Part shown: positions 4,247-63,306 of the stretch, piece by piece
Position numbering within the stretch: position 1 is the first letter of the stretch
How the letters are laid out: each line of letters opens with the position of its first letter
Source: Natronomonas aquatica
GTDB taxonomy: Archaea > Halobacteriota > Halobacteria > Halobacteriales > Haloarculaceae
Reading direction: 5' to 3'
Assembly: GCF_024449025.1 (NCBI RefSeq)
Contig: NZ_JAHLKM010000016.1
Coordinates: forward strand, 1 to 63,691
DNA: 63,691 nucleotides
The notes under the pieces: generated by a model
Told to the model about the DNA's origin: nothing
Database searches by the model: none
Seen by the model: only the letters and a program-made list of their open reading frames with translations
Position numbers and translations under genes: made by a program

Positions 4247-7200
4247 CGTCGAGAGGCCGTCGATCCCGTCGAACCCGTTTCGGCCATCTGCTCTTGGGCT
4301 TCCCGTTTGACCGCCTCGACGTCGAGGTCGTTCTCCTCTAAGACGCGGAGGAAGTAATCGTCGAACTCGACGAGCATCTCGTCGCCCTGGACGTCGTCGG
4401 AGACGTTCTTGTAGTAGGCGACGTTGTAGATCGGCTCACAGCCGCCGGTCGTGTTGCCCACCATGCTCGTCGTCCCGGTCGGCGCGATCGTCGTCGTGTT
4501 GTGGTTCCGCATCTCGAAGCCGTCTTCCCACTCGTCGGCGTCGAGGCCGGTCTGTTTTTCGAACCACTCGCGGTACTCGGTGGGGTCGGCGTACTTGCTC
4601 TTCTCGAATTCGTCGAAGACGCCGCGTTCCTCGGCGAGTTCGTGGGAGGCCCACTTCGAACCGTGGTTGATGTGCCGCATCAGCTGTCGGGCGACCTCGT
4701 TGCCCTCCTCGCTGCCGTACTTGATGCCCAACTGGATGTACAACTGGGCCAGTCCCATCACGCCGAGACCGATCTTCCGCATCTCCCTGACCTTCTCTTC
4801 GATCTTCGGCACCGGGAAATCCGACATCGTAACGACGTTCTCGAGGAACCGTGTGCCGAGTTCGATGCGCCGATCGAACTCCTCGATGTCGATGGCGTCC
4901 TCCAGGAAGGCGTCGACGGCGGCTTCGAGATCTGCGTACTCCCCGCCGTGGTTGTCGTACCAGACACGCCAGTCCGGCGCGTCGAGGTCCGCGAGCGTCG
5001 AGAGGTTGATGTGGCCGAGGTTGCAGGCCTCGTATTCCTCGAGCGGCTGCTCGCCGCAGTTTCCGGTAAACGCGTGTGAGAGAGCGAACGTGTGCGTCTC
5101 TTCACCGACACGGAGGTCCCACACCGGTCCGCTCTCCTCGGCTGGTGTAACCGATTCGACAATCGCATTGTCCGACCGGGTGTTCCCCCTATCAGGGGTT
5201 TTAATATCAGCCAGTGAGGCAGCCTTCGATTCGTGAGTGAGATCGAACGTCTGCCGGAATCGATGGGCCTGTGTCCGCGAGAGCTTTAGATCCCATCGCT
5301 CATACGAGTCGTTCCATTTTTCGGTCTGGGAATTACGAAGGCTTGTCTTGAGTCCGTAGAAACCGAGTAGATCGGAAACGTCCTTGATTAACTGTTCCTT
5401 CGAGGAGACGAGCACGATTCTGTGTTCGTCCTCGTCAATGAACCCGTCCGCAGAGAACAGTCCGTCAATAAACCCTTTCCTGAACGACTCGGAAGCGTCG
5501 CTCCAGAGACTGTCGGGAAGTCCCGCCCGTTTCTTTTCGACGCCGTATTCGTCCATTTTACCCCGTAGTGCGGCGTGACTCGCATGGACCTCGTACCAGG
5601 GTTCGCCGTCGCGCTGTCGTTCCGTCGGTTCGTATCTGACTCCGGTAATGTCCTCTAAGGTGTCGAGTACCCGGTCCATTACCCCTGCACCCGTGTCCTC
5701 TTCCGAGAAAATTAATCCGTACTGTGTGCGACCGTCCTTCCGATGGGTAACACTTCCATCGCCGTATAGCCAGCCGACCAAGAACCCTTCGTCGTGATCG
5801 CCAACGCTTCCGTATCGCAGGCTCTTTCGATGTTTGATCGGAAGGTGCTGACCGCGTTCGAGGTCAGTAGTTTTAGTGCGCTCGTAAGTCCCGTCCCGAT
5901 GAACTGGCCACTTATGTTCTTCAGTCGCCAGATACGTCTTCCCGTTTTCGAGTTCGACCTCGTACAGCGTTTCGTCGTCTCCCGAACGGTGACAGACCGC
6001 CTCTGCCCATTCACCACTCGCCGTGGGGACCTCGACTCGTCTTCCTTCTAACTCCTCGATATCGAGAACTCCCTGGTCGGTAAGAACCTTCGTGCCGGCC
6101 GCTAGTGACGGATTCGTAGCCAGTATCCGGTGATCCGGATGCTCCTCGACGTCGAAGGAGTGTTCCTTGTTCACCCGTTCGAGGTAGATCACGCCGGGTT
6201 CGCCGTTCTCGTGGGCGCCCTCGAGGATGTGCTCCCAGAGTGTCTCCGCCGGCACGGAAAGCACTTCCCCGACCTCGACGTGCTCGCCGAGGCCGAACAT
6301 GTCGTACAGTTCCTTCGTCTCGGGGGTGGCGACGTGGGGCTCGCCGGTCCGGGGGTTGGTGAAGGTAAACTCCTCGCCCGCCTTCACCGCCTTCATGAAG
6401 CCGTCGGTGACGCCGACGGAGATGTTGAAATTCGAGAGGTGCCCCTCGACGGCGTTGCGGAGGTGTTCGGGGACGCGTCCCTCGTCGTCGATGAGTTCGC
6501 GAGCCTCATCCAGCGCCTCCTGGAAGGAGTTGTGCGTGAAGTCGTCGGGATCGTTCAGCCGGAGCGTCTCCGCCAGGGAGACGTCCTTGTTCTTGGCGTG
6601 GATGAACTGGATGACGTCCGGATGTGAGACCCGCATGACGCCCATCTGTGCGCCGCGTCGGGCGCCGCCCTGTGCTATAGTCTCACACATCTGATCGTAG
6701 GTCCGCATAAACGTGATCGGCCCGGAGGCGATCCCGCCGGTCGAGCCGACGGCGTCGCCGTATGGACGCAACTGCCAGAAGGCATACCCCATCCCGCCGC
6801 CGCTGTTGTGTGAGACGACGGAGTTCGCGACGTATTCGTGGTTCCCCTCGACGGTTACATCGTAGACTGTCTCGTTGCCGGCGTCCTCGACGGCGACGAC
6901 CTCCTGTGTCCAGGTCGTTTCGGATTCGACTGTTCCGGCGGTCGTCGAACCGGTCTCCGACGTTACGAGCGATTCGGTCATCGTCTCGCTGCGAGTATCG
7001 ACGAAGCCGACACGGTCGGCGAACCGGGACAGACCGAGTTCGTCAGTCGGCGCGACGGTAAAGTACTCGCGATCGTCGTCGTCCCACTCCCATTTCGTCG
7101 CGGGAACGCCGACGCCGAGAAGCAGTTGCAGGGTCTCGTCGGCCAGCCGTTCTGAAGCGCTATAGAAGCGCGGATACTTCTCTTTCCCGAGCGTTCCGTC

Positions 7201-8802
7201 GGTCGTAAAGAGCCCCCGGAGGAAGGCGTGGATCCGGTCGTGGTCGGCTTTCCGGATGCAGTCGGGGACGGACGCACTCGCCGAATCGGGTTTCGCGTCG
7301 CCGAAGTTCGAGAGCCACCAGCGTTTGATCTCGTGGCTGTGGATGACCGCCTCGTAACAGCCGTCGGCCCAGGTGTGATCGACACCGATGTCGAAAAGCG
7401 ATCGCGAAAGCGAGTCGATGTGGTTGAGTACGTCGTCGCGGTTGACGTGGAACCGGATCCCGTCCTCGTGGACCGAGCCGTCGCCGATCCAGATACCGAG
7501 CAGTTCGGCGAGATCGAGGGTGAGCTCGTCCGGCTGTGTAACTTCCTTGACCGCAGTCCCGTTCGCTTCGAGGGACTGTGCAGCCCGATGTCCGCGGACG
7601 GTCGTCGCGTGTACGTCGAGTTCCTCGGCGATCTCCGTGTCCGTGTGGCCGATCTCGTACAGCCGTGTGAACTCGGCTTCGTCGAACGATCGACCGCTTT
7701 GACGACCGCCCCGTCCGTTCGGTGGAAGGTCGAGTTCGTCGGCACGGCGGCGCTGGATCGTCGAGGCCGAACTGTCGAGCTTCTCGGCGATCTCGTAATC
7801 GCTCAGCCCCTCGGCGTGTAGCTCCGCGATAGCTGTATTCGAGACTGTACGGGTGGCGCTCCACTGCGCCCCGATATCGACGCCGGAGAGCGATCCGGAG
7901 GCGTCCTCGTCCGGTATCCACCCCAGCCGTACGGAGAGTGTATGCCCTTGCTCGATATCGCCGATCTCCGTCCACTCGCCGTTTACCAGCAGTCGGTGGT
8001 TCGGCGTTCCGGTCAGTTCGATCCCGCCCTCGGTGACGACCCGTTTCGTCGGCGCGCCGTCGTAGGCGTGGATCTCCTCGACCGTCCGGGAGCGATACCC
8101 GTCGCCGTCGCGCTGGACGATATCGTCGCCCGGCTCGACGTCGGCGATCGAAACGAGTCCGCGTCCGTCGACCTGAACGTTCGATTCCGCTGTGAGACAC
8201 TGAAACACCTGTGCGGCTTCCTTGGCCGTCTGGTGGATGTCGTCGATGTCGTCATCGGGGCTGTCGACGAAACAGGCCGAAAGCTGCTGGAGTTCGTCGC
8301 CGGCGTTCATCAGCGTCGGGCTGTTCGGCATAAAGGAGAGCTGTTCCATCTGTTCTCGGAACGCCGTGGCAGTCTCCTCGACGTGTGTTTTGATCCCCTC
8401 GGGCAGCTCGGGGACGATCGTCTCGTAGGCGAACTTGTTGACGTTGTAGATCGAAAGCTCGGTTTCGGCGTCGGAATCGGCGGTGACGCCGGCCCCGAAG
8501 ACCTCGGCGGCGAGTTCGTCCCGTCGGGGGTGATCCGGCTTGAGCTGGTCGGGCGTGACGGTGATCTCTTCCCCTCGCTTCCCGGCCTCGAAGACGGCCT
8601 CGGCCAGTGCGACGTTCTTCCCGACGCGCTCGAAGAGGTCCTCCTGTTGTTCGATGAGTTCGCCGTCCGCGTCCTTCCGGAGGTACCGGGCCGGAAGGAT
8701 GTTGTGATAGGCGTTACCGGTGAGTCGCTCTTCTAAAGCGTCGCCGTCGGTCCGCTTGATGGGAAGTGTGAGTTCGTCCGCGGACAGGTCGGGTTTCGAC
8801 AT
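4216..8802 (-). CDS. nrdJ: Class II (adenosylcobalamin-dependent) ribonucleotide reductase NrdJ with two inteins; frameshifted near its 3' end
   Basis: The 1528-residue frame is the N-terminal two thirds of NrdJ, which makes dNTPs by a B12-generated thiyl radical. Extein landmarks: LQQLSACFVD (about 171-180, first redox Cys), GGGMGYAFWQLRPYGD (668-683), NP/CGEQPLEEYEACNLG around the catalytic Cys 1249. Intein 1 is residues 202-666 and intein 2 is 899-1248. Removal leaves about 713 residues of extein. The frame goes wrong after AQEQMAE and stops at 4216; the true tail is in 3194-4246. No other reductase gene is visible here. The start ATG 8802 precedes a normal family N-terminus. Confidence 0.9.
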   Translation of the reverse strand: MSKPDLSADELTLPIKRTDGDALEERLTGNAYHNILPARYLRKDADGELIEQQEDLFERVGKNVALAEAVFEAGKRGEEITVTPDQLKPDHPRRDELAAEVFGAGVTADSDAETELSIYNVNKFAYETIVPELPEGIKTHVEETATAFREQMEQLSFMPNSPTLMNAGDELQQLSACFVDSPDDDIDDIHQTAKEAAQVFQCLTAESNVQVDGRGLVSIADVEPGDDIVQRDGDGYRSRTVEEIHAYDGAPTKRVVTEGGIELTGTPNHRLLVNGEWTEIGDIEQGHTLSVRLGWIPDEDASGSLSGVDIGAQWSATRTVSNTAIAELHAEGLSDYEIAEKLDSSASTIQRRRADELDLPPNGRGGRQSGRSFDEAEFTRLYEIGHTDTEIAEELDVHATTVRGHRAAQSLEANGTAVKEVTQPDELTLDLAELLGIWIGDGSVHEDGIRFHVNRDDVLNHIDSLSRSLFDIGVDHTWADGCYEAVIHSHEIKRWWLSNFGDAKPDSASASVPDCIRKADHDRIHAFLRGLFTTDGTLGKEKYPRFYSASERLADETLQLLLGVGVPATKWEWDDDDREYFTVAPTDELGLSRFADRVGFVDTRSETMTESLVTSETGSTTAGTVESETTWTQEVVAVEDAGNETVYDVTVEGNHEYVANSVVSHNSGGGMGYAFWQLRPYGDAVGSTGGIASGPITFMRTYDQMCETIAQGGARRGAQMGVMRVSHPDVIQFIHAKNKDVSLAETLRLNDPDDFTHNSFQEALDEARELIDDEGRVPEHLRNAVEGHLSNFNISVGVTDGFMKAVKAGEEFTFTNPRTGEPHVATPETKELYDMFGLGEHVEVGEVLSVPAETLWEHILEGAHENGEPGVIYLERVNKEHSFDVEEHPDHRILATNPSLAAGTKVLTDQGVLDIEELEGRRVEVPTASGEWAEAVCHRSGDDETLYEVELENGKTYLATEEHKWPVHRDGTYERTKTTDLERGQHLPIKHRKSLRYGSVGDHDEGFLVGWLYGDGSVTHRKDGRTQYGLIFSEEDTGAGVMDRVLDTLEDITGVRYEPTERQRDGEPWYEVHASHAALRGKMDEYGVEKKRAGLPDSLWSDASESFRKGFIDGLFSADGFIDEDEHRIVLVSSKEQLIKDVSDLLGFYGLKTSLRNSQTEKWNDSYERWDLKLSRTQAHRFRQTFDLTHESKAASLADIKTPDRGNTRSDNAIVESVTPAEESGPVWDLRVGEETHTFALSHAFTGNCGEQPLEEYEACNLGHINLSTLADLDAPDWRVWYDNHGGEYADLEAAVDAFLEDAIDIEEFDRRIELGTRFLENVVTMSDFPVPKIEEKVREMRKIGLGVMGLAQLYIQLGIKYGSEEGNEVARQLMRHINHGSKWASHELAEERGVFDEFEKSKYADPTEYREWFEKQTGLDADEWEDGFEMRNHNTTTIAPTGTTSMVGNTTGGCEPIYNVAYYKNVSDDVQGDEMLVEFDDYFLRVLEENDLDVEAVKREAQEQMAETGSTGSTASRRCPMPSASCS
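5059..6108 (-). other. Intein 2 of NrdJ (350 aa) inserted just before the catalytic cysteine
   Basis: The insertion splits ILATNP/CGEQP, so the +1 residue is the catalytic Cys1249. The intein begins with Ser899 (SLAAGTKVLTDQG) and ends FTGN. Ser as first nucleophile is allowed; the penultimate residue is Gly, not the usual His. Block B is ATEEHKWPV. Two DOD motifs are visible: FLVGWLYGDG (1007-1016) and FIDGLFSADG (1111-1120). Its DNA is clearly richer in A/T than the flanking exteins, suggesting recent acquisition from another source. Confidence 0.9.
6805..8199 (-). other. Intein 1 of NrdJ (465 aa) with LAGLIDADG endonuclease and two internal helix-turn-helix repeats
   Basis: Boundaries are set by the extein: AQVFQ before and SGGGMG after. 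The intein begins with Cys202 (CLTAESNVQVDG, block A) and ends VVSHN with penultimate His, followed by Ser+1, so all splicing residues are present. Block B is TGTPNHRLLV. Two DOD motifs are visible: LLGIWIGDG (434-442) and FLRGLFTTDG (527-536). Between the splicing half and the endonuclease sit two similar helix-turn-helix units, LSDYEIAEKLDSSASTIQRR and HTDTEIAEELDVHATTVRGH, which probably add DNA contacts for homing. Confidence 0.9.
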
Positions 8803-8938
8803 TACTCATCCCTCCGTATCGGTACCTGGTGTTTCCGCTCGGTGCTCCCCTGGGCGGGACGCTCTGTGTGGATCATTTGTAACGAGGTCGGGTACTGCTG
8901 GCTGCCGGATAACCCTTGGCATCGGGGAATGTGTTGGC

Positions 8939-8977
8939 GATGCTATACGATTCCGGGGGGCACGAGATGCTATACGA
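8939..8977. promoter_or_regulatory. Pair of 12-bp direct repeats (GATGCTATACGA), 27 bp apart, upstream of nrdJ
   Basis: GATGCTATACGA occurs at 8939-8950 and again, identically, at 8966-8977. The pair lies 137-175 nt upstream of the nrdJ start on the other strand. Identical 12-mers at this spacing in an intergenic region suggest a protein-binding site, possibly for nrdJ control. It is not similar to the bacterial NrdR box. No regulator is identifiable. Confidence 0.35.
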
Positions 8978-9226
8978 CTTTCCATGGTATGTGTGCCCCA
9001 CGCGTACGACGATAACGAAGTAACGGGAACTATATAATGGTACTCAGTCCGTAGTGAAAGTGAAACTCGAGTCCGAAAAACTGGTTGACAGAAGCGTTGT
9101 TCCCACTGGAAATCATCGGGTGTTAACTGGATCTGACCGGTCGGTCGACGGGACGCCGAACGAGCGGAGGACCCGCCGGAGAACGTTTCACATCCGTTTC
9201 AGGAACTCGTGGCTACCGGCGTGACG

Positions 9227-9246
9227 CTCAAAAAATAAAACAAAAC
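9227..9246 (-). terminator. T-rich terminator of the trp operon
   Basis: Read on the minus strand this is a run GTTTTGTTTTATTTTTTGAG, 88 nt after the trpG stop. Archaeal transcription commonly ends at such U-tracts without a hairpin. It is the first T-rich tract after the operon. Confidence 0.55.
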
Positions 9247-9333
9247 TGACATTATCTGGATGCCGGTGCTTCCGGACGGTGGATCGCCGCTTACGGGCCT
9301 GCTCGATCGCCGGCTTGATCGGCTGAATCCGTC

Positions 9334-9918
9334 TCAGACGGCGTCCAGGAAGTTCTCGATGACGTCGTGTCCGACGCCCGTCAGTACGGATTCGGGGTGA
9401 AACTGGACGCACTCGATCGGGTACTCGCGGTGTCGGATCCCCATCACCAGTTCCTCGCCGTCGTGGTCGGTCGTCGCAGTCACGTCGAAACACGACGGGA
9501 TCTCGAGGGCGACGAGGGAGTGATACCGACCGCCCTGAAACCCCTGTTCGAGCCCCCGGTAGACGCCTTTCCCGTCGTGGGAGACGGGGAACGCCTTGCC
9601 GTGGATCGGTTCGGGCGCGCGATCGACCGTCCCGCCGTACTCGTAGGCGGCCGCCTCGAGACCGAGACAGACCCCGAGCGTCGGCACGTCGGGGCTGATC
9701 TCCCGGAGAACGTCCATCGTCACGCCGACGTCGCGGTCGTTCCCTGGGTGGCCGGGCCCCGGCGAGATGACGATCGCATCCGGAGCCGCGTCGCGAACCT
9801 CCCCGAGTGAGGCGGTATTCCGGAGAACGGTCGTTTCGGTCCCCCCGTGTTGGCTGACGTATTCGACGAGATTGTAGGTGAACGAATCGAAGTTATCGAC
9901 GAACAGGACGTGCGTCAT
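9334..9918 (-). CDS. trpG: Anthranilate synthase component II (glutamine amidotransferase), TrpG
   Basis: 194 residues of a class I glutamine amidotransferase, which supplies ammonia to TrpE for anthranilate synthesis from chorismate. It shows the N-terminal VDNFDSFTYNL, the catalytic nucleophile in LGVCLGLEAA (Cys84) and the His-x-Glu pair in QFHPES (His174, Glu176). The ATG at 9918 overlaps the trpE stop by 4 nt (ATGA), so translation is probably coupled. It is the last gene of trpD-trpF-trpE-trpG. The same frame stays open far upstream, but that part is antisense noise within trpE. Confidence 0.95.
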   Translation of the reverse strand: MTHVLFVDNFDSFTYNLVEYVSQHGGTETTVLRNTASLGEVRDAAPDAIVISPGPGHPGNDRDVGVTMDVLREISPDVPTLGVCLGLEAAAYEYGGTVDRAPEPIHGKAFPVSHDGKGVYRGLEQGFQGGRYHSLVALEIPSCFDVTATTDHDGEELVMGIRHREYPIECVQFHPESVLTGVGHDVIENFLDAV

Positions 9919-11549
9919 CGTCGCGCTTCCTCCGATCCCCGACCGGGGCCGGTTTCGGGTCCGGTCCTCCCCCGTTCGGCTCCGCTTTCGCCTTCGATCT
10001 CTTCGAGGGCGGTGAGGACGCCGTCCATCTTCTTTTCCGTCTCGTCGTACTCGCGTTCCGGATCCGAGTCGGCGACGATGCCGGCGCCGGCCTGGACCGT
10101 CACCCGATCGGTCCCGTCGACGCCCGCGCCGCGTTCGACCGTCGCGGTCCGGATGACGATGGCGAAATCGGCGTCCCCGGTCCACGAGTAATACCCGACC
10201 CCGCCGCCGTAGACGCCACGTGGTCGCCGTTCGAGGTCGTCGATGATCTCCATCGCCCGGATCTTCGGCGCGCCCGACAGCGTCCCGGCCGGGAACGCCG
10301 CCCGCGTCGCGTCGAAGGCGTCCCGATCGGTGGCGAGTTCCCCGGTCACGGTCGATTCGATGTGCTGGACGTGGCTGTACTTGAGGACGTTCATGAATTC
10401 TTCGACACGGACGCTGCCGGCCTCGCCCACCCGGCGGACGTCGTTTCTCGCCAGGTCGACCAACATGGTGTGTTCGGCCCGCTCTTTGTCGTCCGCGAGC
10501 ATCTCGCCGGCCAGCCGTCGGTCCTCGACGGGGCTGTTCCCCCGGTCGCAGGTGCCGGCGATCGGGTTGCTCATCACCTCCCGGCCGCGCACGGAGACGA
10601 GCGTCTCCGGTGAGGCACCGACCACGACCAGATCGTCGTAATCGAGGACGTACATGTACGGCGAAGGGTTGACTCGACGCAGCGCCGCGTACAGGCCGAG
10701 CGGATCCACGTCGCCGTCGAGTTCGCGCGTCCGCGAGATGACTCCCTGGTAGATATCGCCGTCGAGGACGTGCTCTTTGGCCTGCCTGACGGCGTCCTCG
10801 TACGCCGATTGGCCCCCGGCGCGTTCCGCCCGCCGCCGGAAGCCACCCGTCCGAAGCGGTTCGGCGTCGGCGAGGCGCGACTCGACGCGCTCGATTTCGG
10901 CCTCGATCCCGTCGTATATCGCTCCGGGATCGTCCTCGGTCCGGACGAGGGGCGTGAACACCAAAGAGACGGTTCCGGCGGCGTCGTCGAAGACGAGCGT
11001 CTTCGTCGTCAATACGAACTGCGCGTTCGGAAACCGCGAGTCCGGTCGCTCCAAGCCGACCTCCTCGAGCCACAGGTCGTACACCGCGTCGTAGGCCAGA
11101 AAACCGACGAGCCCGCCCTGTAACTGCTGGCGGTCGGTCTCGGGGAAGTTCCGAAGCGGGACGTCCGGCAGCGCCTGCCGGAGCGTCGCGACCGTGTCCC
11201 CGCCGTTCGGTTCGAAGAACCCCTCGTATCGGTCGTCGTCGATATCGACCGTCGCCGCCGCGTCGCCGTCGACCGTCACGACGGCGGCCGGATCGTAGCC
11301 GACGAAGGAGTACCGGGCGTGTCGGTCCGCGTCGCTGCCGGCCCTGAACGCGCCGTCCGGGTCACTGGAGGGGACCTTGCCGGCACTCTCGAGCAGGAAG
11401 GTGTGGTCGGCTCGTTCGCCGTCGGCCGTTCGACCAGTCAGGGCGGCGTAGGCCTCCAGCGGTTCCGTATCGACGTCGAGTTCCGAGACGGCGCGGATCA
11501 CGGCCGGCCGTTCCTCGGCGAACTCGACGAACGACGACCGAGAGATCAC
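9915..11549 (-). CDS. trpE: Anthranilate synthase component I, TrpE
   Basis: 544 residues of the chorismate-binding family. The C-terminal half has the catalytic signature AGTLSGAPKIRAMEII and earlier SNPIAGTCDRG, both typical of anthranilate synthase large subunits. It uses chorismate and ammonia from TrpG. The N-terminus, SRSSFVEFAEERPAVIRAVS, is the usual haloarchaeal start. It overlaps trpF upstream and trpG downstream by 4 nt each, so all four genes form one tight transcription unit. Confidence 0.95.
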   Translation of the reverse strand: MISRSSFVEFAEERPAVIRAVSELDVDTEPLEAYAALTGRTADGERADHTFLLESAGKVPSSDPDGAFRAGSDADRHARYSFVGYDPAAVVTVDGDAAATVDIDDDRYEGFFEPNGGDTVATLRQALPDVPLRNFPETDRQQLQGGLVGFLAYDAVYDLWLEEVGLERPDSRFPNAQFVLTTKTLVFDDAAGTVSLVFTPLVRTEDDPGAIYDGIEAEIERVESRLADAEPLRTGGFRRRAERAGGQSAYEDAVRQAKEHVLDGDIYQGVISRTRELDGDVDPLGLYAALRRVNPSPYMYVLDYDDLVVVGASPETLVSVRGREVMSNPIAGTCDRGNSPVEDRRLAGEMLADDKERAEHTMLVDLARNDVRRVGEAGSVRVEEFMNVLKYSHVQHIESTVTGELATDRDAFDATRAAFPAGTLSGAPKIRAMEIIDDLERRPRGVYGGGVGYYSWTGDADFAIVIRTATVERGAGVDGTDRVTVQAGAGIVADSDPEREYDETEKKMDGVLTALEEIEGESGAERGRTGPETGPGRGSEEARR

Positions 11550-12190
11550 GGCGGATCACCCGCGACGGCACCCGCGAGCGCCCGATCGACGAACGCTTCG
11601 ACCGCGTCCGGATCCTTGCGTCCCGGGCGTGATTCGACGCCGCTGGCGACGTCGACGCCGAACGGTCGGACGGTCTCGACTGCCTCGGCGACGTTCTCCG
11701 GCGTGAGGCCGCCTGCAAGCACCACGGGCGTCGATAGTTTCTCGACCAGTTCGCCCGTCCGGACCCAATCGTGGGTCGTCCCCGTTCCACCCGCGCCGTC
11801 CTCGTCCAGCGAATCGACCAACAGTGCATCGGCGACAGTCTCGTATATCCCGGCTTCCTCCGGGGAGACCGCCTTGATCACGTCCCCGCCGACGTTCGCC
11901 GAGAGGTAGGCCAGATCGCCGGGCGTCGATTTCCCATGAATCTGGACGACGTCGGGCTGGATCCGGGCGGCCAACTCGACGGTGGTCTCAGGGGCGCCGG
12001 GCATCGTCACGAGGACCGTCGTGACGAACGGCGGCGTCGCTCTGGCGAGTTCGACCGCGAGGTCGGGATCGATCTCTCGGGGGGTCCCGACGTCGACGTC
12101 GACGATGAGTCCGATCGCGTCGACGCCGGCCTCGACGACCAACTCGAGGTCTTCCCGGGAGGTGATCCCACAGACCTTCACCCGGGTCAT
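11546..12190 (-). CDS. trpF: Phosphoribosylanthranilate isomerase, TrpF
   Basis: 214 residues with the TIM-barrel signature RVKVCGITSREDLE at the N-terminus (catalytic Cys7) and the phosphate-binding end VVLAGGLTPENV and GVDVASGVE. It isomerises phosphoribosylanthranilate in tryptophan synthesis. The length is normal. It overlaps the trpD stop by 4 nt and runs into trpE with a 4-nt overlap. Confidence 0.95.
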   Translation of the reverse strand: MTRVKVCGITSREDLELVVEAGVDAIGLIVDVDVGTPREIDPDLAVELARATPPFVTTVLVTMPGAPETTVELAARIQPDVVQIHGKSTPGDLAYLSANVGGDVIKAVSPEEAGIYETVADALLVDSLDEDGAGGTGTTHDWVRTGELVEKLSTPVVLAGGLTPENVAEAVETVRPFGVDVASGVESRPGRKDPDAVEAFVDRALAGAVAGDPP

Positions 12191-60612: not shown

Positions 60613-60924
60613 TCAATGCTGACTCGCCACGGGACACCGGGAGGTGAGTCGTGATCCCAGAGAAACGACCCTCTCGGTGGACAGCCCCGAAACCCCCTCG
60701 TGTAGCGGGCCTTCGCCTGTGGGAGGCCCCCGTTCACAGCGGGTGAGGATGTCACCCAGTGTATCGTGCTTCCAGTTTTCGAGGGAGGAAAGCGTCGCGA
60801 CGAACCCCTCGATTTCTTCGAGCAACCGGGGTTCGGCCTCGTCGACCGCCGGGAGCGTCACGGCCACCCGATCAGTCACGTCGGCGGCGTCGGTGGGGCT
60901 GTCCGTCTCTGCGTGGAATGCCAT
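60613..60924 (-). CDS. Possible 103-aa protein, C-terminal part running into an IS scar
   Basis: ATG 60924 starts 36 nt after the stop of the MoaD-like gene. Residues 1-56 (AFHAETDSPTDAADVTDRVA, VDEAEPRLLEEIEGFVATLS) look like acidic haloarchaeal protein. From about residue 57 the frame reads the antisense of scar F (60707-60755) and beyond, so the C-terminal 45 residues are probably acquired or non-native. It may be a truncated gene. Confidence 0.45.
   Translation of the reverse strand: MAFHAETDSPTDAADVTDRVAVTLPAVDEAEPRLLEEIEGFVATLSSLENWKHDTLGDILTRCERGPPTGEGPLHEGVSGLSTERVVSLGSRLTSRCPVASQH
60707..60755 (+). mobile_element. IS200/IS605 right-end-like hairpin pair (scar F)
   Basis: GGGCCT (60707-60712) pairs with AGGCCC (60724-60729); CCCG (60729-60732) pairs with CGGG (60740-60743); then TGAGGATGTCACC follows, the same terminal motif as scars B and D. 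It is embedded antisense in the 3' part of the 103-residue frame. Bases 60465-60612 hold no supported gene. Confidence 0.5.
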
Positions 60925-60959: not shown

Positions 60960-61214
60960 TCAGTCCCGCATCGGCGACGTAGAGACGTTCAACTGGTCGC
61001 CGTCGGCGAGTTGCGTCGACGGATCCAAGTGACGCCCGTCCCGCATGACGACGAGCGTATCTTCGTCGTCGATCAGTCCCTCGAGGTCGGTATATTCCCC
61101 GGCGAGCCGATCCAGGACGTCCGCGACCGTCGCGCCCGTTTCGACTGTCAGCTCCGTCCGGTCGGCGGTGACGGCCTCCCGGACGTTCCCGTAGCATCGA
61201 ACCACGATCTCCAT
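60960..61214 (-). CDS. MoaD/SAMP-like ubiquitin-fold protein without terminal diglycine
   Basis: 84 residues with the MoaD beta-grasp pattern: EIVVRCYGNVREAVTADRTE, VETGATVADVLDRLAGEYTD, LADGDQLNVS. It ends STSPMRD rather than GG, so it cannot be activated as a sulfur carrier or modifier in the normal way (seen directly; consequence inferred). It is divergent from an intact homolog at 61306 and followed by the 103-residue frame. Confidence 0.8.
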   Translation of the reverse strand: MEIVVRCYGNVREAVTADRTELTVETGATVADVLDRLAGEYTDLEGLIDDEDTLVVMRDGRHLDPSTQLADGDQLNVSTSPMRD

Positions 61215-61305
61215 GCCGTCCGGTTCGTGCGCCGGCTAGTAACCGTTTGGGAACGCCCCGATCGGACTCGGATAGATTGATACCGATCACGTCTCTAGAC
61301 CACGT

Positions 61306-61587
61306 ATGGAGATCGAGTGTGTGTTCTTCGGACCGATCCAGGAGGCCACCGGAACGAAAGCGACGGCGTTGACGATCGAGCCGGGCACCACGGTGGCGGA
61401 ACTGATTACGGACCTGACCGCCGAGTACGAAGGCCTCGAAGAGCGGCTATTGACCGACAGCGGCGAGATCCGCGACAGCCTCGTGTTCACCGTGAACAAA
61501 CGCCATATCCGCCATCTGGAGGGCGAAGCGACGGAGCTGTCGGACGGCGATACGGTGCGGATCACGACGTCGATACAGGGCGGGTAG
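61306..61587 (+). CDS. MoaD/SAMP-like ubiquitin-fold small modifier or sulfur carrier
   Basis: 93 residues. EIECVFFGPIQEATGTKATA, IEPGTTVAELITDLTAEYEG and DGDTVRITTSIQGG show the beta-grasp fold and the C-terminal diglycine needed for adenylation. In haloarchaea such proteins serve both molybdenum/tungsten cofactor synthesis and protein SAMPylation. It converges on the aldehyde:ferredoxin oxidoreductase gene, a tungstopterin enzyme, which makes a cofactor role likely (inference). Confidence 0.9.
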   Translation: MEIECVFFGPIQEATGTKATALTIEPGTTVAELITDLTAEYEGLEERLLTDSGEIRDSLVFTVNKRHIRHLEGEATELSDGDTVRITTSIQGG

Positions 61588-61629: not shown

Positions 61630-63306
61630 TCAGTCGTCGCCGGCGGCCGCGGATTCGGCGGCGCTTTGCTCCGGGACAGTCCCGTCGTCATTCCAGCCTC
61701 GGCTGGCGTAGTACTCATCCAGTGCCGTCTCGAAGTCGGGCAGCTCGTAGGGTAGCCGGTCGTCCTCGCGGTCCATCCCGCGTTCGTTGTTGAAGTGGCG
61801 TTCGAGTTCGATAACGCGGCTCCCTATCCCGTCCAGCCGTTCCCAGTCGGTGCCGAGGAGCGCGGCGAGTTGCTCTTCGCTGATGTAATCGTCGATCCCG
61901 AACGCACAGACGATCCCGCTGTCGCGGATCGCCATCTTGTTTTCGCGGTGGATCAGCATCTCGACTTTCTCCTCGAACAGCCCCTCGGGATCGATCTGAC
62001 CGTCGTACTCCGGGCCGAGCATGTTTCCGTACATGTGGTCGGCGCCACGGTTGGCGACGGCGTACGAGAGCCCCTGTCCGTGGATCGCTCGTCCGTCGTG
62101 GGCCGCAAACTCGAGGCCCTTGACGCTCCAGTTGCCGACGCCGAGCTCTTCGTGTGCACGTTCGACGCCCTCGGCGAGGGTGTCGCCGATCCCCTCACGG
62201 TGGGCGATTTTCGGCAGTATCTCGTGGACGAGTTCGGCGTTCCCGAACTCGTCTTCGGCGGCGAGGTAGGCGGCGACGGTGTCACCGGCGCTGATCGTGT
62301 CCATCCCCAGCAGGTCACAGAGCTCGTTCGATTGCATCACGTCGACGACGTCGCCGATGCCCTGGTTGCTGCCGAACGAGAACACGGTTTCGAACTCCGG
62401 CCCCTCCGTCTCCAGATCGCGCGCCTCGTCTTTCGTCGGAAGCTTGCAGGCGAACGCACAGACCGAACAGGCCTCTTTCTTGTACTTTTTCGACTCGACC
62501 GCGTCGCCGTTGATCCCCTCGACCGATTCGAACTCCATCTCCGAAAAGTACCGGGTCGGCAGCGAGAAGTTGTCGTGGATGAACTGCGTCCCCGCGGTCG
62601 TCCCCTGTCGCTTCATCATGTCGTCGGTCGTCGCGGCTTCGGCGTGGATCTCGGACTGTACGTCCTCCGGCAGCTCCACCGACGGCGTGGAGTCGCCCTC
62701 GAAGGACATCGTCTTGACGTTCTTCGATCCCAGGACGGCGCCGAGGCCACCCCGCCCGAAGGCCCGAGAATCGTAGGTCATGACGCAGGCGAACCGAACG
62801 AGGTTCTCGCCGGCGGGTCCGATGGTGATCAGGTTTTCCGACTCCAGGCCGTGTCGCTCGTTCATGACTTCGGTCACCCGTGGGACCTGGGCCTCGGCCA
62901 GTTCGGGGACTTCCTCGAACTCCACGCCATCGTCGGTGACGTGAATCGCGAGCAGTTCGTCGCTCTCGCCGACGATCTCGACGACTGGATACCCCGTCCC
63001 GGCGAAGTTCCGGGAGAGATAGCCGCCGGCGTTCGTCGAGAGGACCCCGTCCGTCAGCGGCGAGAGCCCGGTCATGTTCATCCGGCCGGTAAACGACATC
63101 TGGGACTGCTGGAGCGGTCCGGTCGAGATGTACGCACGGTTCTCGGGGCCGAACGGATCGGCATCGAACGGGATCCGGTCGTGGGCGAGTTTCGTCGCGA
63201 CACCGCGCCCGCCGACGAACGATTCGAGTTCGTCGTCGATATCGGTTTCGCGGACGGTTCGGGTTCCGACGTCGATCGTCAGGAGCGGTCCTTTGGCGTG
63301 TTCCAT
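61630..63306 (-). CDS. Aldehyde:ferredoxin oxidoreductase family (tungsten enzyme)
   Basis: 558 residues. N-terminal LTIDVGTRTVRETDIDDELE and the pterin/4Fe-4S motif EACSVCAFACKLP (about 292-304, C-x2-C-x3-C) with a later Cys in CAFGIDDYIS are those of the AOR family. RMNMTGLSPLTDGVLSTNAG (75-95) is a pterin-binding segment. It oxidises aldehydes to acids with ferredoxin. Length is slightly below hyperthermophile AORs. ATG 63306 gives the usual start. Confidence 0.92.
   Translation of the reverse strand: MEHAKGPLLTIDVGTRTVRETDIDDELESFVGGRGVATKLAHDRIPFDADPFGPENRAYISTGPLQQSQMSFTGRMNMTGLSPLTDGVLSTNAGGYLSRNFAGTGYPVVEIVGESDELLAIHVTDDGVEFEEVPELAEAQVPRVTEVMNERHGLESENLITIGPAGENLVRFACVMTYDSRAFGRGGLGAVLGSKNVKTMSFEGDSTPSVELPEDVQSEIHAEAATTDDMMKRQGTTAGTQFIHDNFSLPTRYFSEMEFESVEGINGDAVESKKYKKEACSVCAFACKLPTKDEARDLETEGPEFETVFSFGSNQGIGDVVDVMQSNELCDLLGMDTISAGDTVAAYLAAEDEFGNAELVHEILPKIAHREGIGDTLAEGVERAHEELGVGNWSVKGLEFAAHDGRAIHGQGLSYAVANRGADHMYGNMLGPEYDGQIDPEGLFEEKVEMLIHRENKMAIRDSGIVCAFGIDDYISEEQLAALLGTDWERLDGIGSRVIELERHFNNERGMDREDDRLPYELPDFETALDEYYASRGWNDDGTVPEQSAAESAAAGDD

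Follow-up and report, generated by a model that had tools for sequence, protein, structure and literature searches.

In MoaD-type proteins the C-terminal glycine is adenylated by an E1 enzyme and then thiocarboxylated, and that end enters MoaE for the formation of molybdopterin (PMC4443979). A function in tungsten-cofactor synthesis has been suggested for MoaD genes located beside aldehyde:ferredoxin oxidoreductases (AOR) (Iyer et al. 2006, PMC1779556), and WorX, a 'ThiS-like' protein encoded beside class I tungsten oxidoreductases, is predicted to have a pterin/tungsten cofactor role (PMC13328260). MoaD-type proteins contribute to the activity of tungsten-cofactor enzymes in Thermococcus kodakarensis (PMC11323500), and in Aromatoleum aromaticum the co-expression of aorDE raised AOR activity, as well as tungsten content when tungstate was added, while AorD and AorE were both absent from the purified AOR (PMC6365974, PMC9295118). 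The locus described here lies in a 63,691-nucleotide contig of the haloarchaeon Natronomonas aquatica (NZ_JAHLKM010000016.1, analysed over its whole length and hereafter called the window), and comprises two ubiquitin-like genes, UBL-A and UBL-B, beside an AOR gene, as shown in Table 1. In the parts of the sources at hand, the AOR-linked MoaD/WorX system is a MoaD/ThiS-fold gene strictly beside AOR, which UBL-B fits exactly; these parts describe one gene, assigned to pterin synthesis, whereas UBL-A represents a second conserved copy without Gly-Gly. Aromatoleum likewise has two accessory genes beside its AOR, aorD and aorE, MoaD-resembling by description, but that AOR is a bacterial, three-subunit enzyme. 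No published account of a conserved Gly-Gly-less companion of an AOR-linked MoaD was found in the open-access literature, and we rate the AOR-linked MoaD as already known and the added conserved, conjugation-incompetent paralogue as the new element.

Table 1. Features of the UBL-A/UBL-B/AOR locus, in window coordinates.
Feature	Position	Strand	Description
UBL-A, MoaD/ThiS-fold protein	60960..61214	-	84 aa, no Gly-Gly, C-terminus STSPMRD; ORF
UBL-B, MoaD/SAMP-like protein	61306..61587	+	93 aa, C-terminal Gly-Gly; ORF
Divergent intergenic region, start codon to start codon	61215..61305		91 nt; sequence
Tungsten aldehyde:ferredoxin oxidoreductase (AOR/WorL)	61630..63306	-	558 aa; AFOR_N + AFOR_C

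The first-pass annotation had described two divergent MoaD/SAMP-like genes starting 91 nt apart, which the ORFs and Pfam matches confirm, and had given one a Gly-Gly end and the other the end STSPMRD, which can be read directly in the translations (last ten residues VRITTSIQGG in UBL-B and LNVSTSPMRD in UBL-A). Both promoters presumably lie in this 91-nt interval. The AOR shows both domains of the AOR/class I WOR large subunit, AFOR_N with 197.5 bits and AFOR_C with 270.6 bits in Pfam, and its ORF carries CSVCAFAC plus a Cys motif further downstream. One MoaE gene and one full-length E1 gene were detected in the genome. Directly downstream of UBL-A, the ORF at 60616-60924 (-) is what is left of a decayed gene: its start and a middle stretch match intact proteins of 124-129 aa in related genomes, part of the interior is deleted and the end is scrambled; we take its family to be UPF0047/YjbQ-like, and it was dropped as a candidate partner of UBL-A, being the remains of a gene of another family.

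Both small proteins belong to the MoaD/ThiS beta-grasp superfamily, with 36.6 bits for UBL-A and 51.1 bits for UBL-B against the Pfam ThiS profile (PF02597; cut-off 22.5). UBL-B matches this profile through its last residue, and the alignment to MoaD structures reaches the final Gly-Gly in UBL-B and stops at the last strand in UBL-A. The AlphaFold2 model of UBL-A is a confident beta-grasp (mean pLDDT 91, about 60 over the last four residues), for which H. volcanii SAMP1 was the best Foldseek match and bacterial MoaD was also close (both with probability 1.00), and the best solved relative of UBL-B by sequence was HVO_2177 (2m19). The H. volcanii proteins SAMP1 and SAMP3 (HVO_2177) are accordingly the closest solved folds, with 3po0 (TM 0.88) and 2m19 for UBL-A and 2m19 for UBL-B; SAMPs end in Gly-Gly and become isopeptide-linked, which UBL-A, lacking Gly-Gly, cannot. 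Both proteins remain below the curated cut-off of 60 bits for the SAMP1 equivalog NF041918 (38.9 for UBL-A and 58.1 for UBL-B), and RefSeq nonetheless names the UBL-B orthologues 'ubiquitin-like small modifier protein 1', the UBL-A orthologues being just 'MoaD/ThiS family protein'. TmoB of toluene monooxygenase, a ubiquitin-fold subunit bound non-covalently to a metalloenzyme, offers a functional analogy to UBL-A but belongs to another enzyme, and UBL-A is not a member of that family (14.9 bits against PF06234 in Pfam, cut-off 25).

Differential patterns were observed for the C-termini of the two proteins. A Gly-Gly end, the site for E1 adenylation and for a sulfur-carrier or modifier role, was found in none of the 19 UBL-A homologues and lies within the last six residues of 78 of 83 B-type sequences, four of the remaining five carrying Gly-Gly followed by an extension. 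In the window the UBL-A tail is equal in length to that of UBL-B, with RD in place of GG, and many UBL-A homologues also have a tail as long as a Gly-Gly tail, indicating replacement rather than truncation. The ends vary among RD, RE, PE, PEG, VED and IDE over the 19 homologues, with P[MV]-x-[ED] followed by at most one further residue in 13, NPVGRE or DPVGRE in three and ADTIDE in three; at the tail arginines and serines the codons differ synonymously and the residues are kept. The reading frame is intact in all homologues, and no Gly-Gly remnant was found past any UBL-A stop when all frames were translated. The earlier description of UBL-A as 'tail-less' is thus incorrect, the tail being of full length with GG exchanged for RD and with no GG frame just past the stop. 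Since there is no C-terminal glycine to activate, a role as sulfur carrier or modifier is very unlikely for UBL-A. That it still serves as a covalent modifier or sulfur carrier, through a non-canonical C-terminus or through processing, is accordingly improbable: the MoaD-like fold speaks for it, as do the residues after Gly-Gly in some AOR-linked UBL-B proteins, which suggest that proteins of this group undergo or require C-terminal processing, but Gly-Gly is present nowhere in the tail of any UBL-A, the residues laid bare by trimming would be Pro-Met, Val-Gly or Thr-Ile and never Gly-Gly, and the C-terminal glycine is the site of E1 adenylation in MoaD/ThiS-type proteins (PMC2948915, PMC4443979).

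The UBL-B proteins with residues beyond Gly-Gly (GGKPDRRPRSHS..., GGRE, GGSG, GGG) are AOR-linked and were observed in L060 (genome G338, 7341-7685) and also in L062, L067, L070 and L059; such proteins could be activated only once their C-terminus is processed, unless the stop is to be read differently. Another unequal pair of ubiquitin-like genes, arranged in tandem, was seen in L068 (G435) at 7544-7822 and 7834-8115 (-), with the ends PPVTGG and PPRTGP, adjoining a different, distantly related AOR type; its PPRTGP member looks like an independent loss of Gly-Gly.

Clear members of the UBL-A family were detected by profile search in 12 of 391 haloarchaeal genomes and 7 of 85 genera, all scoring at least 86.9 bits, and further members were added by an AOR-seeded scan (Halegenticoccus tardaugens, Halegenticoccus soli, Haladaptatus halobius and two Halococcaceae MAGs) and by a plasmid search (Haladaptatus caseinilyticus), with Halomarina sp. 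BND7 carrying it as well, which gives 19 distinct homologues from several haloarchaeal families. In a bounded first look outside the haloarchaea, a phylum-wide sample of 295 genomes, no member was found at the same threshold. The UBL-A of the window is a divergent orthologue, with 49% identity at best; a homologue at 48% identity is present in G055, from another genus of the same family, and none was found in 19 genomes of the same genus. With the tail columns excluded, the 13 UBL-A sequences used for the clade test group together in a single clade, with support of 98 (ultrafast bootstrap) and 94 (SH-aLRT).

UBL-A is under purifying selection, with dN/dS values of 0.14 for a pair of Haladaptatus sequences (bootstrap 0.06-0.30), 0.25 for the Halomarina/G392 pair (0.10-0.53) and 0.34 for the G370/G212 pair (0.16-0.66), these three pairs carrying the reading as a fourth was too little diverged to inform. 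Two UBL-B pairs gave comparable values (0.31 and 0.34), and AOR a lower one (0.07). The first-pass annotation had also raised the possibility that UBL-A had decayed and lost its end. The notion that UBL-A is a decaying UBL-B copy that lost its end in this genome draws on the missing orthologue among the 19 same-genus genomes, on the absence of UBL-A from some related cassettes and on the truly decayed left-hand neighbour at 60616-60924, but the intact frames and the bootstrap intervals below 1 in three pairs are not those of a pseudogene of UBL-B, the tail is equal in length, an alternative tail is common to several families, the homologues in the clade test form a clade apart from UBL-B pointing to a single origin, and the tail codons differ synonymously under a dN/dS well below 1. 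Decay is therefore refuted for the family by the tail, clade and dN/dS evidence, and is very improbable for this genome. A recent local loss of Gly-Gly was likewise rejected, as Gly-Gly on both genes, which had been named as a sign of such loss in close relatives, was never seen. UBL-A is thus a conserved, intact and selected family with its own C-terminal signature, travelling with AOR and UBL-B, and is probably functional as a non-covalent partner, not a defective duplicate.

A MoaD/ThiS-like gene beside a WOR/AOR large subunit was observed at many loci for UBL-B and at 18 for UBL-A, so that UBL-A adjoins AOR in 18 of its 19 occurrences, all within one broad AOR clade. The lone UBL-A away from AOR, in L066 (G230) at 7778-8044 (-), ends in TGTPMPE and has a ribonucleotide-reductase-like gene and a transporter as neighbours. 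Mapped onto a 125-AOR tree, UBL-A presence requires 4 changes compared with 16.2 for shuffled labels (0 of 500 shuffles as low). This fits a single early gain followed by several losses, although the starred branches force at least three changes. AOR residues tracking UBL-A presence, such as M511, C174 and Y178, were discarded as confounded by phylogeny. The suggested check on whether the pair and its tail difference are conserved next to AOR came out positive, as the pair recurs in other haloarchaea and is more than chance; the refuting observation named with it, that relatives have no second copy, is true of many (the 19 same-genus genomes and several AOR plus UBL-B loci) and fails elsewhere, where the pair is found.

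The divergent UBL-A/UBL-B order recurs in G427, G354, G332, G370, G283, Haloplanus ruber and Haladaptatus, and in the majority of loci AOR is faced by UBL-B, with UBL-A divergent from it. The reported convergence of the intact UBL-B (+) on AOR (-) holds in the window, with 42 nt between their ends, but is not general: G338, with the AOR most closely related (82%), has the pair in inverted order, and there AOR is faced by UBL-A; an aldolase-family gene separates UBL-B from UBL-A in Halomarina and G392; AOR is flanked by UBL-B and UBL-A in G396; and in G255 UBL-A is present alone, 51 nt past the end of AOR and in the same orientation, UBL-B not being found in the 16-kb locus, so that in this relative AOR and UBL-A stayed together when UBL-B was lost. 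Thermosome/chaperonin-like genes, recognised by eye, adjoin AOR and UBL-A in L064 (G255, 8437-11748) and L065 (G370, 5153-6814). In the megaplasmids of H. halobius and H. caseinilyticus (L255, L256) the only DNA shared in 12 kb is the segment 3930-6255, which consists of AOR, UBL-B and UBL-A with almost nothing more and has sharp borders; as these three genes alone are shared, they behave as a cassette and bear the marks of a mobile three-gene tungsten-enzyme unit. Several AOR plus UBL-B loci have no UBL-A, such as that of H. pallidirubidus, and the many relatives without it indicate that UBL-A is a lineage-specific, dispensable part of the cassette; AORs with UBL-B and without UBL-A in the same tree show that AOR function does not generally depend on it.

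Of the possibilities first raised for the Gly-Gly-less member, a conjugation-dead paralogue that serves in regulation or structure is its best reading, and two such roles have to be weighed. As a non-activatable competitor, UBL-A would take the place of UBL-B or SAMP1 on E1 or MoaE and lower molybdopterin synthesis or sort it toward tungsten. Its MoaD fold and tail length would allow it to fill the same sites, its transcription is mostly divergent from that of UBL-B out of one short region, and in H. volcanii MPT synthase is regulated through attachment of SAMP1 and SAMP3 to MoaE (PMC4443979); yet a global regulator of the single MoaE is expected neither on plasmid cassettes with one AOR nor in restriction to one AOR clade, and UBL-A without UBL-B in G255 speaks against competition, which we consider the main alternative, somewhat less probable than the preferred reading. 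The retention of UBL-A with AOR even without UBL-B favours instead a non-covalent role at AOR or in its cofactor loading.

The preferred reading, to which we assign a probability of roughly 45%, is that UBL-B is an AOR-linked sulfur carrier of the MoaD/WorX kind and that UBL-A is a conjugation-incompetent paralogue acting non-covalently, most plausibly as an assembly or stability partner of AOR. By analogy with MoaD chemistry, UBL-B would be adenylated by the single UbaA-like E1 and then thiocarboxylated, and its sulfur would pass via the single MoaE to the pterin of the tungsten cofactor. UBL-A, not being activatable, would bind non-covalently, with AOR or the cofactor loading of AOR as the favoured target, and its P-M-x-[E/D] tail may dock where a Gly-Gly tail would. 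AOR is inferred as the partner from gene linkage alone. Against this reading count the divergence of the window's own UBL-A, the AORs with UBL-B in the same tree that lack UBL-A, the single-subunit AORs of other organisms that are active without such a partner (PMC13328260), and the UBL-A without an adjoining AOR in G230. A more specific form of this reading, offered tentatively, is that UBL-A could be dedicated to a haloarchaeal tungsten enzyme, either as a non-covalent subunit or as a chaperone for cofactor loading, and thus be a MoaD paralogue turned enzyme partner in which Gly-Gly was exchanged for a conserved acidic tail.

The archaeal ubiquitin-like survey of Makarova and Koonin (2010, PMC2948915) chose families partly by GG or CC ends, and surveys selecting in this way could miss proteins like UBL-A, which is a clear example of how a MoaD-type protein has left the sulfur-transfer/conjugation pathway. 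A Gly-Gly and a Gly-Gly-less member moving with AOR as one cassette allow sulfur carriage to be told apart from any role in binding, and the roles of both are testable in genetically tractable haloarchaea. The cassette bears on how tungsten enzymes gain their cofactor and on what the extra MoaD/ThiS-like genes adjoining them do.
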